Below are positions 28,652-34,640 of a stretch of 64,000 bases of DNA, one piece after another. Location of the stretch: positions 1 to 64,000 of the forward strand of contig JAAWBS010000002.1 of the NCBI GenBank assembly GCA_022792815.1, in the 5' to 3' direction. This stretch comes from Hungatella sp. GTDB taxonomy: Bacteria > Bacillota > Clostridia > Lachnospirales > Lachnospiraceae. Below the pieces are notes generated by a model that did not search any database, was not told the origin of the DNA, and worked only from the letters and a program-made list of their open reading frames with translations. Made by a program: the position numbers and the translations under genes. Each line of letters begins with the position of its first letter. Positions within the stretch are counted from its first letter, which is position 1.

Positions 28652-30211
28652 TCAATCTTCCCTCTTGTACATCTTCAATCTCTTCATACAGCTCCAATAA
28701 TTTCTGTCACTAACATATTTCTCCCCGTTCTTCCTCTCCTCCAGATCAGCCGTATCCCGAAGCCAGTCCGAGCGGACGCATCCCAGCCGCAGACAGCGCA
28801 TGGCCTCTCTGATCTTCTCCCCGGACGCTCCGGAGTCTCCCATATCCCTTAAAAGCGCTTTCGCCGCCTCATCGTAGGCAGGGTTTAAAAACCGCCCGGC
28901 TCCCGGCAGATATTCCAACTCAAATATGGCATGCCCGCTTCCGCCCGGAAGGTAACAGTCATCCTCCGAGGTCTCCACGATGTGCAGATAGTAGAGAGAG
29001 GCGCTTTTTCCCTTCCTCTGCCGGATGATCCGCCCAAGCCTCTGGATCCTCTGCCTCCTGGCAGCCGTCCCCGAAAGGACGATTCCCACCGCAGCATCCG
29101 GCACGTCCACCCCCTCATCGATGGACTTGCAGGCGATCAGGATCCGCAGCTCCCCGTCCCGAAACCGCTCCAGCACATTTCGGTTGGCCTGCTGCCCCAT
29201 ACCGGAGTGGCAGCGCCCCACTCTCCCCGGATACCTCCCGGCCAGAAGCCGGTATATCTCCTCTGCCTGGCTGATCCGCTCCCCGAACAGAAGTATCTTC
29301 TCTCTTTCGTCCAGTCTCTGTACCAGATCACAGGCACAGGAAATCCTGGCAGAAGCCAGACAGACCAGACTTTTCCTCTTATAGGAGAGGGACAGATATT
29401 GTTTTGCTGTCTCGGCGATCCTTCGGTTTTTATCGCCGCAGAGGCTCTTTAACAGCTCAAAACACTCCCCCTGGCTCATCGTTCTCAGAGACGGGTAACT
29501 CTGACACAGGCAGTTGTAGAGTCTGATCATCCGTTCGCTCAGCTCGTCATATTCAACCCGCTCCCCCTTCTCAAAGGAGAGCCCGATGTGATAGATCTCA
29601 TACCGGCACACAGTGGCCATCGCCATGGCCTTCTCCATGCCATAGGTGTAGATCCCCGGCCCCAGGACGGAGGCAAGATACTGTCTCGCCTCGCCGCCCG
29701 GCAGGGTGGCCGACAGCCCCATGGAAAAAAAACGCTCCTCGTACTCCCCGATATGGGGCAGGAACTCAAAGATCAGCTGGTTTTGGCCGCTTACATAGTG
29801 GTGGCACTCGTCCGCAATCAAAAACACCGTATCTCCCTGCCGCAGCTCCGCCAGAATCTGCCTGGCCAGCTCATAGCGTGCGGAATTGACCACATAGATC
29901 AGATACTTTCGGTCTGCGGGGGCCGTGTGCCCGCTGCCTCTCATGCCGATATCCCGGCGCCTTTCTTCCCCTCCCAGGCTGTCTCTCGGAAACTCTCTTA
30001 GAGCCTGTGCCCACTGCCGCATCAGAGCTCCGGTGGGGACTACGATCCGGACTTTCAGCTTCTCCCCGGCCAGCTCTTCCAGCCGGGCCGCCGCCGTCAG
30101 CGCCATCCGTGTCTTTCCGGAACCGGTCACTGCCTGCACCATCCCTCTGCCGCCTGCTGCCTGCCATCGCTTTAAGCAGTCCTCCTGCCATGAATAAAGG
30201 TCACGATTCAT
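28652..30211 (-). CDS. SF2 DEAD/DEAH-type helicase
   Basis: A 519-residue superfamily 2 helicase. The Q-like N-terminus (YSWQEDCLKRW) is followed by motif I TGSGKT (29-34). Motif Ia is VVPTGALMRQW and motif II DECHH. Motif III is SATLPGG, and motif V/VI region is IACKSIDEGVDVP then QRIQRLGRIIRQRKG. The DECHH and R(L)GRIIRQ forms recall XPB/Res-type DNA translocases rather than RNA helicases. No nuclease domain is visible. It is divergent from, and shares a 207-base control region with, a three-gene operon encoding two P-loop ATPases, and helicase plus DUF2791 ATPase pairing is known in BREX type 2 (BrxHI/BrxD) and Ter-associated systems. I infer a joint DNA-processing role. Confidence 0.88.
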   Translation of the reverse strand: MNRDLYSWQEDCLKRWQAAGGRGMVQAVTGSGKTRMALTAAARLEELAGEKLKVRIVVPTGALMRQWAQALREFPRDSLGGEERRRDIGMRGSGHTAPADRKYLIYVVNSARYELARQILAELRQGDTVFLIADECHHYVSGQNQLIFEFLPHIGEYEERFFSMGLSATLPGGEARQYLASVLGPGIYTYGMEKAMAMATVCRYEIYHIGLSFEKGERVEYDELSERMIRLYNCLCQSYPSLRTMSQGECFELLKSLCGDKNRRIAETAKQYLSLSYKRKSLVCLASARISCACDLVQRLDEREKILLFGERISQAEEIYRLLAGRYPGRVGRCHSGMGQQANRNVLERFRDGELRILIACKSIDEGVDVPDAAVGIVLSGTAARRQRIQRLGRIIRQRKGKSASLYYLHIVETSEDDCYLPGGSGHAIFELEYLPGAGRFLNPAYDEAAKALLRDMGDSGASGEKIREAMRCLRLGCVRSDWLRDTADLEERKNGEKYVSDRNYWSCMKRLKMYKRED

Positions 30212-30258
30212 CTGCTGCCCACCTGTCCTGACTTTTTGTCGTTTTCCTAGATAGTTGG

Positions 30259-30267
30259 ATTATATCA
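30259..30267 (-). promoter_or_regulatory. extended -10 promoter of the helicase gene
   Basis: Minus-strand TGATATAAT provides an extended -10; no good -35 is seen at 17 bases. It lies about 50 bases upstream of the helicase ATG. Confidence 0.5.
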
Positions 30268-30344
30268 CAGGAAGGCTTGGTTTGTATTTTTTATGAAGAA
30301 AAATTTTATTTTTGTGACAGCCCCCATCTATTTCCGAAAAAATC

Positions 30345-30373
30345 TTGAAAACACCGCATATTTCATATATACT
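30345..30373 (+). promoter_or_regulatory. promoter of the three-gene ATPase operon
   Basis: TTGAAA (30345-30350) and TATACT (30368-30373), spacing 17. The start would fall near 30380, about 40 bases before the first ATG. It lies back to back with the helicase promoter. Confidence 0.7.
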
Positions 30374-30418
30374 TTTTATAGTTTTGACACTCAAAAAATA
30401 AATAAAAAGGATGAAACC

Positions 30419-31198
30419 ATGAATTACGAAAATCTGTATCAGACGTTGCAGCCTGAGGAAAAGTCGGTAAAGGACGCTTTGGCCTCTCTTCAGAAGCTCT
30501 CCAAATCCGTAGGACGCGAGACGGAGAGCGGAGACTTAAAAAATCTTGTAAAAGACATCAATGCCATGGCAGACACCGCTGCCGTCCTCTCAGCCGCTTT
30601 GGAACGGATCCGATCTGCCATCGGAGATTTTGACGCCAAGGCTTATTTTGAAAGCGGTGATTTCGCGGCTCAGATGCTGGAAGAATGCCGGGAAAAGGGA
30701 GTAGACGTCCGCGGCGCCTCTCCCGTCTACGAGATGTTTCCCTACAAAGTGCGTCTGGACATGGAGAATCAGGATATTTACCTTGACCGCAAAAAAGTGC
30801 AGTGTGTGCGCCCCTTAAGCTTCGTGGAAACGGTCCGCAGCGGCCAGGAGAAGTTAAACAAGGCTCCCTTCAACGCTGCCTCCTTTGCCGGCGAGCTGTC
30901 GGATGCCTATGATCTGGCCGTCTTAAAGCTGAACCGTCAGCCTGAGTCGGATATCTATCTGACCAGTCTGTACAAACTGCTGGCTCCCATGAGCCGCTTC
31001 CGAAAAGATTATGACCTGCAAAGCTATGCATTTGATCTGGCCCGGCTGTATATCTCTTATATCTCAGGAACCGATACCGCCAAGAACGGAAGGAAATTCC
31101 AGTTCGGCCCCAACAGGGAGAGCAAGAAATCCATCCGTATTCTGGACCAGAACGGCAATGAGCAGCATCTGTCCACCATCCGTTTCTACCGTGAATAA
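30419..31198 (+). CDS. uncharacterised 259-aa protein of the helicase/ATPase module
   Basis: I do not recognise this family. The first 90 residues are helical and probably coiled-coil (SVKDALASLQKLSKSVGRE, MADTAAVLSAALERIRSAI). The centre has a beta-like stretch, EMFPYKVRLDMENQDIYLDR, ending in a conserved-looking KVQCVRPLSF. The C-terminal helical domain (ESDIYLTSLYKLLAPMSRFR) ends in a basic tail, KFQFGPNRESKKSIRIL. No signal peptide or membrane span. The ATG at 30419 follows AAAAAGGATG; an earlier in-frame ATG at 30293 lies upstream of the promoter. It is separated by only 11 bases from the first ATPase gene, so the product likely acts with it, perhaps as an adaptor. Confidence 0.75.
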   Translation: MNYENLYQTLQPEEKSVKDALASLQKLSKSVGRETESGDLKNLVKDINAMADTAAVLSAALERIRSAIGDFDAKAYFESGDFAAQMLEECREKGVDVRGASPVYEMFPYKVRLDMENQDIYLDRKKVQCVRPLSFVETVRSGQEKLNKAPFNAASFAGELSDAYDLAVLKLNRQPESDIYLTSLYKLLAPMSRFRKDYDLQSYAFDLARLYISYISGTDTAKNGRKFQFGPNRESKKSIRILDQNGNEQHLSTIRFYRE

Positions 31199-31209
31199 GA
31201 GGTGAGATT

Positions 31210-32415
31210 ATGATGTCCGAATTCAGAGAACAATTAGACATCACCCGGACCGGCGGTTTATCCGGTGCCGTGGAGCTGACCTGCGGAATCCGGTTTCTCA
31301 CCGATTTCTGGCGCGAAAAATATCTTCAGGAGTATATCAAAGACGGCGGCAGCAAGATTAAGTTCGTCACAGGCCGACAGGGAAGCGGCAAGACTCACTT
31401 TCTGCGCCTGATGATCGCTATCGCCCGCAAAGAACACTACAAGACCGTGTCATTTTCCGCAAAAGATGTGTGGATGCATGATTTCAAGGAGATCTATGTG
31501 GAGATCCTCCGTCAGTGCGGGCTTATGGAGTGCTTAGAGGCTCTTGGATGCCGTCTGATTCAGGAGATGGGTTTTGACCCGGATGAGATCCCGGAAGGCA
31601 TGAAATTTATCGACTATCTCTCCCACAACGGCATGGGGGATGCCATAAACAAGCGGGAGATCCGCGCACTGCTGAAACAGACCTTTCTGGACAATCCCAT
31701 GCTGGACAATAATTTTGCCTTGGCGTGCAGTATGCTGACCGGAAGTGTCCTGGGCTACCCTGTGCTGGAGGACCAGAGCCGTGACATGCTTCTGGCGTGG
31801 CTGGAGGGAGACCGGACCGTCAAACTGGCACAGCTGCGGGCGCTGGGCTTTTATCCCAGCCGCATCACCAAGTTTAATGCCCGGCATATGCTCCGCTCCT
31901 TAGCGGAGGTGGTCCGCCTCGGCGGATATTCGGGCCTGTTCATCACCATCGACGACCTGGAGATCCTGGTCAGCCGCTCCAGCTTAGAACCGGTACATTA
32001 CACCAAGATGAAGCGGGAGGATACCTATGAGAGCATCCGCCAGCTGATCGACGACATCGATACCATGAAAAACATCATGTTCGTCTACGCCTTTGACCGG
32101 GAGCTGGTGGATCACGAAAACGCAGGGATCAAGTCCTATCAGGCCCTGTGGATGCGGATACAAAATGAGATCATCGGAGAGCGGTTCAACCGTTTTTCTG
32201 ATATGATCGATCTGGATCTGCTTGCCATGCAGGAATATACGCCGGAGGTGATCATCTCCATATCAGAGAGTCTTGCCGGCTTACAGAAAAACACTCCCCT
32301 GGCTCCCCTGGATCTGGAAACTGCCAGGACCGTCGCGTCCCAGGCCCGCACCGGAGCCATGGGAATCCCCAGACTGATTCAGATCGCTATGGAGGAGGTG
32401 AAGACCGATGTATGA
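31210..32415 (+). CDS. P-loop ATPase 1, BREX-associated (DUF2791/BrxD)-like
   Basis: A 401-residue ATPase. Walker A is GRQGSGKT (55-62), directly after a strand KFVT. Walker B is LFITIDDLEIL near residue 242, with tandem Asp. A later sensor-like segment is NIMFVYAFDRELVDHE. The helical insert between them (residues 90-220) and the C-terminal helical region resemble BREX ATP-binding domain proteins (DUF2791, AAA+-like). It is not closely similar to the next gene product outside the core motifs, so the two may form a heteromeric ring. Its last 8 bases overlap the start of ATPase 2. GAGGTGA precedes the start. Confidence 0.8.
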   Translation: MMSEFREQLDITRTGGLSGAVELTCGIRFLTDFWREKYLQEYIKDGGSKIKFVTGRQGSGKTHFLRLMIAIARKEHYKTVSFSAKDVWMHDFKEIYVEILRQCGLMECLEALGCRLIQEMGFDPDEIPEGMKFIDYLSHNGMGDAINKREIRALLKQTFLDNPMLDNNFALACSMLTGSVLGYPVLEDQSRDMLLAWLEGDRTVKLAQLRALGFYPSRITKFNARHMLRSLAEVVRLGGYSGLFITIDDLEILVSRSSLEPVHYTKMKREDTYESIRQLIDDIDTMKNIMFVYAFDRELVDHENAGIKSYQALWMRIQNEIIGERFNRFSDMIDLDLLAMQEYTPEVIISISESLAGLQKNTPLAPLDLETARTVASQARTGAMGIPRLIQIAMEEVKTDV

Positions 32416-33604
32416 CATGGAAGCCAGGCACATCATAGAAGCCCTGCGCTCCGGCGTCCCGTCCCGGGCTGTGGGCCAGTACTTCTCCGAGGCTCGTCCC
32501 AAGATTATGAAGGAATTGTCGGGACGCCTGGATCTGGTGTGCGACAAGAACAAATCAAGCGGAATGATCATCAGCGGCAAGTATGGGGAGGGGAAGACCC
32601 ACCTGCTGAACACGGTCTTTAATCTGGCCCATCTGAACAATATGGTGGTCTCCTACCTTTCCTTGAGCAAAGAGACTCCTATGGACAAGCTTTATCTCGT
32701 CTACCAGAAGACCCTCCAGAACACCTATCTTCCGGGGCGGCAGCAGCCGGGAATCATGCAGGAGCTGGAGAAAATATCGGCCAACAGTCCCCTGGCCGGG
32801 GAGATGCTTCCCTTTGCCCTCAAATCCTTAGAGACGGATAAGCTGTACTATCTGTTCCGCTCCTACTTAAACACCGAGGATTCGGACGAAAAGTTCCTCC
32901 TCCAGGCTGACCTGGAAGGCGATTTTGTGGCTAACGGCTCGTTAAAGAAGATCTATCGCCGCATCTTCGGCCAGCCTGTGAAATATAACGAAAATTTCTC
33001 CAAGACCCGCCACTGCGGCGACTATTTTGCTTTCATGAGCCATCTGTTTACCCATATGGGATACCACGGGTGGGTGATCCTCATGGACGAGACGGAACTG
33101 ATGGGCCGCCTGAGCAAAAAGGCCCGGCTCAATGCCTATCGCAATATGGCCAGGTTTCTCCTTCCGGAGCTCTGCCCTGAATCCACCTTCACTCTGTTCG
33201 CTCTCAGCTCTTCCTACGTGGAGGATGTCATCGAGGGCAAACACGATTACGAGAACCTGGAACAGATCTACCCCATCAGCCTGCAGCCTGCCAGAACCGT
33301 CCTGGATATGCTGGTGAAGGCTCCCCAGCTGGTACCTTTAACCAGGGAGGAGGTCAGCAGCGCTCTGGCCAAGATCCAGGATTTCCACGGTCGGGCCTAC
33401 GGCTGGACCCCTAACGTGTCTGCCGAATCCCTGACAGAGGCCACTCAGTCCGGCGGCTATCTGCTCCGCACCAAGATCCGGGCTGCCATCGAGTTTCTAG
33501 ATCAGCTGTATCAGTACGGCAAGGCCGGGAAGACGGTGATCAATGAACTGGGGGAGGAGAGCCTGGCCCAAGAGGACGTGCCTTTGCTGGAGGAGGATTG
33601 GTAG
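32408..33604 (+). CDS. P-loop ATPase 2, BREX-associated (DUF2791/BrxD)-like
   Basis: A 398-residue ATPase. The N-terminal helix IIEALRSGVPSRAVGQYFSE with GRLDLV is the usual DUF2791/BrxD opening. Walker A is GKYGEGKT (57-64), followed by HLLNTVFNLAHLNNMVVSYL. Walker B is WVILMDETELM near residue 222, and an arginine-bearing stretch (SKKARLNAYRNMARFL) follows. These features fit BREX system ATP-binding proteins. The start overlaps ATPase 1 in ATGTATGA and has GGAGGTG 7 bases upstream, giving strong coupling. It is the last gene of the operon; a strong hairpin follows. No PglZ, PglX or other BREX gene is present. Confidence 0.85.
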   Translation: MYDMEARHIIEALRSGVPSRAVGQYFSEARPKIMKELSGRLDLVCDKNKSSGMIISGKYGEGKTHLLNTVFNLAHLNNMVVSYLSLSKETPMDKLYLVYQKTLQNTYLPGRQQPGIMQELEKISANSPLAGEMLPFALKSLETDKLYYLFRSYLNTEDSDEKFLLQADLEGDFVANGSLKKIYRRIFGQPVKYNENFSKTRHCGDYFAFMSHLFTHMGYHGWVILMDETELMGRLSKKARLNAYRNMARFLLPELCPESTFTLFALSSSYVEDVIEGKHDYENLEQIYPISLQPARTVLDMLVKAPQLVPLTREEVSSALAKIQDFHGRAYGWTPNVSAESLTEATQSGGYLLRTKIRAAIEFLDQLYQYGKAGKTVINELGEESLAQEDVPLLEEDW

Positions 33605-33710: not shown

Positions 33711-34640
33711 TCACTCCAATAATGCTGATGATAAAGATCCGTAAACCGATTTATACTCTTTCTCCTGAATCAGACAGCTGGCCGACTGGGAAAAGGCGGC
33801 AAACGGCTCGGGAGCCGTACACTCCAGCTCCGCCAAGTCCACCAGGGACAAAGTAGTGCTGCTTCCCTGGCCTTTCTGAGCGCAGAAGCGCACGAAGTCA
33901 TCGGCGATCTGCCTGCCGATCTCCAGGGTAGGCATAGACGGATCTTCCGAAAGCTTAGTCAGCCAGTCCATATAGTACCAGCCATACCCGGATTCCGTCT
34001 CCTCCGAGGCGATCATGTAATCTCCGTACTGCCCCAGCATCAGGGCATTCTCCATCGTCGCCATCAGACATGCGTCAAAGCCGATGAAATCAAAGGTGGT
34101 TCCCCCGTCCTCCAGAGCCTTGTCGATGCCCGCCAGCGTCATAGAGCCCGACTTGGGGTATTTCTGGTCATACCCATACCCGCTGACAGAACCGTCTCCG
34201 TGATCCCAGAAGATCAGCTGTCTCCTGTTGGCCGGATAGCGTTCGCTGCACCATCGGATAAACTCCGAGAGAGTCTCCGGCTTTGTCATGGACACATCTC
34301 CCATATCCGGTTCCAGGCACACCAGGCCGCCCCCTTTACCTGATAGATCTGGTTCACCCTGCTGCTGACCACCTGGTTTTTCCATCCGGTACAGCCGCCG
34401 GTGTAGACCAACACATTGACCCGGTCGCTCAATGTCGCTGCTGCCATCTCCTTAAGGTCCGAGGTGGCCATGCCGCTTCTCGACTCCAGGTCCGTTCCGC
34501 ACATATAGATCATGACCGTGACCGTATCCTGGCCGCCGCCATTGATAACCGTCCGCTTCTCTCTGGCCCCCGGCGCCACGGAAGTCTCCAGCACGCCGGT
34601 GTTGGAGCCCCCCTCCAAACCAGTTCGCCCCACTCTCAGT
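33711..34640 (-). pseudogene. frameshifted clostripain-type (C11) cysteine peptidase remnant
   Basis: Two minus-strand frames encode successive parts of one C11 peptidase. Frame one (34286-34633) has VTVMIYMCGTDLESRSG and the start of the catalytic domain. Frame two (33711-34385) continues QLIFWDHGDGSVSGYGYD with the catalytic His and FDFIGFDACLMATMENAL with the catalytic Cys. The phase changes within a G-run near 34335-34345, consistent with a one-base indel. There is no signal peptide at the front, and the usual C-terminal region is absent, so it is truncated at both ends as well. Non-function is my inference; a sequencing error could explain the frameshift but not the missing ends. Confidence 0.75.

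Follow-up and report, generated by a model that had tools for sequence, protein, structure and literature searches.

A four-gene module of an SF2 helicase and two BrxD-like ATPases with complementary motifs in Hungatella

Four genes at one locus and their inheritance as a unit

The stretch of DNA examined here, called the window throughout, comprises the 64,000 nucleotides at positions 1 to 64,000 (forward strand) of contig JAAWBS010000002.1 from a Hungatella sp. of the Lachnospiraceae (GenBank assembly GCA_022792815.1). At 28652-33604 it carries a module of four intact open reading frames (ORFs): HEL, a helicase of 519 residues at 28652-30211 on the minus strand, and, divergent from it, the plus-strand three-gene operon X (259 residues, 30419-31198), A1 (401 residues, 31210-32415) and A2 (398 residues, 32408-33604). 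A1 and A2 are the ATPases, and HEL is separated from the operon by an intergenic region of 207 bp (30212-30418). A first-pass annotation, made from the letters of this DNA, had described a helicase and an operon diverging from one control region and two ATPase genes overlapping by 8 bases, and the four ORFs, the intergenic region and the overlap are all as it stated. The start of X at 30419 is preceded by AAAAGGA, which resembles a ribosome-binding site, and an alternative in-frame ATG upstream at 30293 would give a protein of 301 residues. A sigma-70-like site at 30345-30373 on the plus strand (10/12) did not rise above shuffled sequence, with 5 sites in the region and 3.1 ± 1.9 expected, and an Rfam scan of 20000-45000 returned nothing at gathering scores.

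The four genes recur together. A scan of 84,980 species genomes with an X alignment gave relatives in 141 of 150 stretches, of which 80 were kept; a phylum sample in which 17 of 398 genomes matched X (own genome included) gave 16 further loci, and with the window the comparison set comes to 97 sequences. A fragment in G388 and weak X matches in G460 (E 4.5e-5) and G708 (E 8.6e-4) were excluded from the locus counts. By title, the kept records are mostly from Lachnospiraceae or other Clostridia/Eubacteriales; some are titled only "bacterium", one metagenome-assembled genome is titled Sphaerochaetaceae (L118) and one Bacilli (L123). Since these sequences were found through X, X is present by construction. 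A1 is present in 97/97 (near full length in 94), A2 in 94/97 (near full length in 90), the other three contigs ending first, and HEL in 81/97. Of the loci without HEL, five have a contig end 207-726 bp from X, and the other 11 are deep relatives in which tblastn did not find it. Where HEL is found it is divergent and upstream in 77, downstream in the same direction in 3 and upstream in the same direction in 1, and the genes for A1 and A2 overlap in 77 of 94. The same recurrence is seen among same-genus and family relatives, some of whose modules are cut by contig ends. The four proteins have correlated pairwise distances (r 0.83-0.92 for 64 dereplicated of 70 complete loci), host relatedness being included in these values. 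Co-conservation, one of the checks put forward for the proposed module, is what the counts record. Among individual loci, L112:9437-9565 has a very short helicase match, HEL is split into two hits in L082 and L083, and at L196:7961-8116 only the last part of X was found, a remnant.

The presence of the module is patchy. A1 occurs in 9 of 26 same-genus genomes (own included), in 0 of 11 other-genus members of the family and, as weak matches, in 3 of 24 genomes from other families; X occurs in 9 of 299 family genomes, again counting its own. In genome G009 the four genes fill 5.3 kb, with no other non-overlapping ORF of at least 70 residues, between a lipoprotein-like gene (by eye an ABC-transporter binding lipoprotein) and a type III restriction-modification pair (Mod 383 bits, Res 53 bits). 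In G010 these two neighbours, ~91% identical to those of G009, stand 208 bp apart without the module. A housekeeping gene set is ruled out by this distribution and the empty site. A sulfite-reductase gene, present in 8 of the 26 genus genomes, has the module on its 3' side in the window and in three relatives; in three module-free genomes the downstream side of this gene differs. One relative with the module has a 575-residue ORF between HEL and the sulfite-reductase gene (L016:6276-8003) that matches no PADLOC family at E 1e-5. A module borne by phages is also ruled out: A2 had no match in phage records and X no relative in viral contigs. Direct search of plasmids gave no match to X, and the distant plasmid relatives discussed below came through A1.

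X has no Pfam match above cut-off, none in PADLOC at E up to 1 and only a chance-level one in NCBIfam. When 15 X proteins were scanned against Pfam, each family that appeared drew just one or two of them, at weak E-values (best 0.00024). Its AlphaFold2 model (pLDDT 86.9, pTM 0.64) has a coiled-coil hairpin at residues 3-69 followed by an alpha/beta part that ends helix-helix-helix-beta, an ending that, taken from the model, would fit a winged helix. Fold comparison covered the helical hairpin at 1-72 only and returned generic coiled coils.

Complementary motifs in the two ATPases

Both ATPases belong to PF10923 (BrxC/BrxD), scoring 105.5 bits (A1) and 84.6 bits (A2) against a gathering cut-off of 22.2. 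The resemblance to BREX-associated DUF2791 proteins that the first-pass annotation had noticed is thereby confirmed by profile search, and the Walker A (GRQGSGKT and GKYGEGKT) and Walker B (ITIDD and LMDET) motifs of A1 and A2 are as it quoted them. Neither protein reaches the curated cut-off of 350 for the BrxD equivalog NF033438 (75.2 and 42.5 bits), and in PADLOC SngB is the first match for A2 and the second for A1. In the PDB the A1 profile hit DnaA and other proteins at the P-loop, with no clear relative among them; a BrxC query gave no match.

Across the relatives the two proteins keep different parts of an ATPase. K63 of Walker A and D227 and E228 of Walker B are each found in 90/90 near-full-length A2 proteins, as is R354 of a C-terminal pair of arginines whose second member, R358, is kept in 89; by position the pair may be labelled sensor-2-like. 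A2 lacks the SYxALxxR motif, and Arg occupies that column in 5/90, the column being gapped in deep relatives. The arginine of this motif in A1, R316, is invariant in 94/94 near-full-length A1 proteins, and profile alignments agree that A1 carries the family arginine as R316 and that A2 is without it. The Glu position of A1 Walker B (249) holds Asp in 67, Asn in 20 and Glu in 1 of the 94. Walker A of A1 is intact in 87/94; it is lost in L147-L150, L153 and L157, and L142 has GR instead of GK. Single ATPases of the BrxD/SngB type (three Shango-like, four more plasmid matches and the BrxD of one BREX operon) have Walker A, a DE Walker B and the arginine in 8/8, with the arginine ~60 residues after Walker B in SYxALxxR or a similar motif. 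The completeness of these single proteins supports a split of the ATPase between A1 and A2. As the losses are complementary, A2 appears to retain the parts that act in cis and A1 the part that would be given in trans, with R316 as a putative arginine finger. The two look subfunctionalised, and the heteromeric machine that had been suggested at first is, judged by these motifs, probable.

Two plasmid relatives, from Desulfomonile and Aulosira, suggest an order for these losses. Their A1 has DE plus the arginine, and their A2, inspected by eye, has DE, lacks SYxALxxR and shows Ala in place of the first P-loop Gly. It thus looks as if A1 lost the Glu after A2 had lost the Arg motif.

A solved parallel exists in type 1 BREX, where BrxB lacks Walker motifs (PMC12839542) and inserts R182 into a BrxC ATP pocket; a second BrxC would supply R330 there (PMC13326643). 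As proposed here for A1 and A2, a subunit with the ATP site is joined by a partner that gives an arginine (PMC13326643). The likeness has its limits: BrxC is ~1200 residues long, BrxB is without Walker motifs and A1 is closer to a full ATPase, having lost Walker A in some deep relatives only.

The helicase, its exchange among relatives and known systems

HEL matches ResIII (66.4 bits), Helicase_C (60.3 bits) and ERCC3_RAD25_C in Pfam. In PADLOC it scores highest against the helicase part of PbeA (193 bits, profile 251-631 of 672), its nearest solved structures are RAD25/XPB (E 2.8e-26), and the GKT, DECH and QRxGR positions show at least 95% conservation over 77 near-full-length sequences, that of the window among them. 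By these matches HEL is a superfamily 2 (SF2) helicase that is XPB- and PbeA-helicase-like and not BrxHI-like. The pairing with BrxHI drawn in the first-pass annotation is contradicted for HEL by the PADLOC, NCBIfam and solved-structure matches, although the two plasmid relatives do have a helicase of BrxHI/SngC type. PbeA, of the CxC-type system PbeABCD, joins an HKD nuclease and a helicase in one protein (PMC10853773) and is the closest match to HEL in the defence library. HEL covers it from 251 only and so lacks its N-terminal part, and no nuclease domain was recognised in HEL. A Pbe or Dnd restriction system is ruled out by this partial coverage (251-631), by a score of 143.7 bits against the Dnd restriction equivalog TIGR04095, which fails the cut-off of 600, and by the failure to find DndC in the window's own assembly, which is ~89% complete (control found in 5/14 genomes, only below cut-off).

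Among distant relatives the ATPases stay with X and the motor changes. Desulfomonile tiedjei pDESTI.01 and Aulosira laxa plasmid3 carry X-A1-A2 and the BrxHI/SngC-type helicase (BrxHI scores 291 and 327 bits) all in one direction, and their X proteins match the window X by profile (95.7% and 90.8%) over the C-terminal two thirds. The Aulosira copy directly follows PglX-PglZ-BrxD-BrxHI; on the Desulfomonile plasmid an AbiE pair lies 3.3 kb upstream. In L154, BrxL comes directly after A2 (Pfam 304 bits, PADLOC 358 bits), and at L153:12898-15221 and L157:12857-15273 X-A1-A2 is followed by a protein of 186-193 residues and an SNF2 helicase, a pair kept in two genomes. Three relatives lie in type I CRISPR-Cas loci: L147 with Cas1, Csc2 and Cas10d, L148 with Cas1, Cas3 and Cas7b, and L149 with Cas3 and a piece of Cas1. 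L151 lies ~2.5 kb from BrxC (2092 bits). CRISPR-Cas, BrxL or BrxC thus stands beside 5 of the 13 deep Bacillota loci (L147-L157, L194, L195), a count made without a control; one of the 13, L152, sits on a contig of 3.5 kb, too short for neighbours to be seen. BrxL and SF2 helicases are viewed as filling the same unwinding role (PMC12839542), and the change of motor fits such a shared role.

Several of these loci hold further genes. Related genes stand directly upstream of X at L151:10460-11716, L155:8985-10058 and L194:10757-11797, one of them with a helix-turn-helix match near cut-off; a regulator or a further component is possible. L156:3901-10509 runs in one direction through X-A1-A2, an unknown gene, an HSP70-like gene, another unknown gene and a beta-CASP-type metallo-hydrolase. 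A very distant set at L197:6646-10126, with a 286-residue protein and two ORFs weakly matching A2 that adjoin helicase-like ORFs, is possibly a further branch of the same kind.

The first-pass annotation had the module stand apart from BREX genes. In its favor, A1 and A2 are the only PF10923 matches in the own genome; PglZ (PF08665) was not found there (control found in 2/14 genomes) and DUF6079/BrxC (PF19557) gave no match, with a weak control seen in one genome below cut-off. These searches revealed no BREX core in the ~89% complete assembly, in support of that claim; PglX and PglW were not searched genome-wide. A full BREX system elsewhere in the genome was rejected on the same searches, which did not include PglX. 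BrxD of type 2 BREX is reported to keep an arginine finger and is a proposed helicase loader, and in the brxD-brxHI dyad, as in the module, an ATPase of ORC/Cdc6 type is tightly linked to an SF2 helicase (PMC12839542). Unlike type 2 BREX, the module comes with no PglZ found, a helicase that is not BrxHI-like, and two ATPases plus X. That it is a remnant of type 2 BREX, its other genes lost and its function gone, we regard as very improbable. PF10923 membership and the Aulosira copy directly behind a BREX operon speak for a remnant, but HEL and A2 have kept their catalytic motifs throughout the relatives, the module is present or absent as a whole (G009 versus G010), and the partner genes of the X relatives found in 141 stretches are, in the 80 kept, present except at contig ends.

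Shango, whose TerB protein is SngA, was reportedly first described from E. coli by Millman et al. in 2022. It is a system of an ATPase and a helicase that acts against phage in P. aeruginosa and is reported for E. coli (PMC10250203). The suggestion that a module of such parts is not a named system does not survive this comparison, because a BrxD-like ATPase with a helicase outside BREX already bears the name Shango (PMC10250203) and PADLOC lists SngB first for A2 and second for A1. Like the module, Shango is a small stand-alone set of a BrxD-type ATPase, a helicase and a further gene; it has three genes and one complete ATPase, whereas the module has two complementary ATPases. Among ten plasmid matches to A1, the first gene ahead of an ATPase and a helicase is TerB_N in five and hypothetical in one (in one of these six the ATPase gene is not annotated), two are of the four-gene type, one has a first gene named DUF805 and one is unannotated. 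In three Shango-like plasmid loci the first gene encodes 645-833 residues (TerB_N annotated in L158 and L160, hypothetical in L159) and the helicase 723-762 residues.

A divergent Shango, with X in place of the TerB protein, a duplicated ATPase and the same mechanism, is a rather unlikely alternative. A1 does match a SngB-type ATPase (25% identity, E 4e-16), and both A1 and A2 reach 99% when compared by profile with three SngB-type ATPases. X, however, is unrelated to the three Shango-like first genes (hhalign probability 0.1), two of which are annotated TerB_N, and the own genome gave no TerB (PF05099, control found in 4/14) and no TerB_N match (PF13208, control silent). XPB-like HEL has no significant blastp match to the helicases of these loci, and SngC is absent from the best 25 of its 46 PADLOC rows; a profile comparison of 93.6% with the Shango-like helicases may be explained by the shared SF2 core. 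On the missing TerB, the different first gene, the two ATPases and the lack of a significant blastp match between the helicases, classical Shango is ruled out. The module is a real and coherent unit of the BrxD-helicase kind to which the type 2 BREX dyad and Shango belong, and not a wholly new kind. Its points of interest are the split ATPase and the exchange of motors; a BrxD-like ATPase with a helicase outside BREX was already known. In the literature passages surveyed on BrxD, BrxHI, DUF6079 and Shango, which took in few subscription papers, this module is not described and no mechanism is given for the ATPase of Shango.

A candidate helicase-loading mechanism and the neighbours of the module

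By analogy, the module may work as the brxD-brxHI dyad of type 2 BREX and Shango do, with the ATPase split in two. X would bind or recognise DNA, marking it and acting as a scaffold on which A1 and A2 assemble with ATP as a mixed AAA+ ring or dimer. A2 would bind and hydrolyse ATP, and A1 would give the arginine finger in trans. The resulting switch could load or activate HEL, an XPB-like DNA translocase, on the target, and translocation by HEL would block replication of the target instead of cutting it. We lean, by a modest measure, towards this reading of a self-contained, horizontally variable four-gene module directed most likely against phages or other mobile DNA; a defence role as such is likely.

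Set against this is an accessory DNA-repair or replication-restart module, in which the AAA+ pair would load the XPB-like helicase where the cell's own DNA is damaged or stalled and would play no part against phages. We consider it the less probable account by a clear step, but a serious one. The closest solved structures of HEL are RAD25/XPB, and close-clade loci show no excess of defence genes next to the module. The patchy occurrence of the module, including an empty site within the same genus, is at odds with a repair role, as are the deep relatives in CRISPR-Cas loci and beside BREX parts and the low conservation of HEL, which is the least conserved of the four with a mean identity to the window of 0.53 versus 0.76 for A2.

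A broader proposal, which we hold tentatively and rate a little short of even, is that X-A1-A2 is a portable split-ATPase core coupled to interchangeable motors (XPB-like, BrxHI/SngC-like, SNF2, BrxL and perhaps Cas3 in type I CRISPR loci), with A2 as the ATP site and A1 as the arginine finger in the manner of BrxB and BrxC. If true, it would define a new class of helicase-loading defence machine. The relatives also link BREX, Shango and certain type I CRISPR loci through a single shared ATPase module. What BrxD does in BREX is so far a matter of proposal (PMC12839542). Because the complementary losses indicate which residue each half should contribute, the helicase-loader idea becomes testable by point changes in a small four-gene system.

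A number of observations weigh against the defence mechanism favored here. R316 is called an arginine finger from motif and spacing, and a profile comparison of the BrxC ATPase of L151 with A1 aligned the P-loop region only. The Asp at A1 Walker B might still permit hydrolysis, the A1 Walker A survives in all but a few relatives, and the A1 proteins of the two plasmid relatives, which have the Glu, look like complete ATPases. The distance correlations contain host relatedness, phage and viral records were silent for A2 and X, and the defence neighbors of the deep relatives were counted without a control. At the close loci, the enrichment near defence genes that the first-pass annotation had named as support is not seen. 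Random draws of 118 ORFs each, from 240 dereplicated near and 241 far ones, were compared by a tally of PADLOC families, not ORFs, at E 1e-20, and the nearest flanking ORFs were not enriched relative to those farther out. Among the best 25 of 30 and 25 of 40 families, mad3 had 3 members in each set; the near ORFs added one member each of reverse-transcriptase, JetD, Cas1 and homing-endonuclease families and the far ORFs one each of PDC-M01, PDC-M10, PDC-M13 and PtuA. The module in the window, finally, has sulfite-reductase, Gate-domain and clostripain genes as its scanned neighbours by Pfam. The last of these is a clostripain-family (PF03415) ORF of 224 residues at 33711-34633 on the minus strand, which matches profile positions 64-226 of 359 only; a second ORF on the same strand overlaps its start in another frame, and the gene looks broken.

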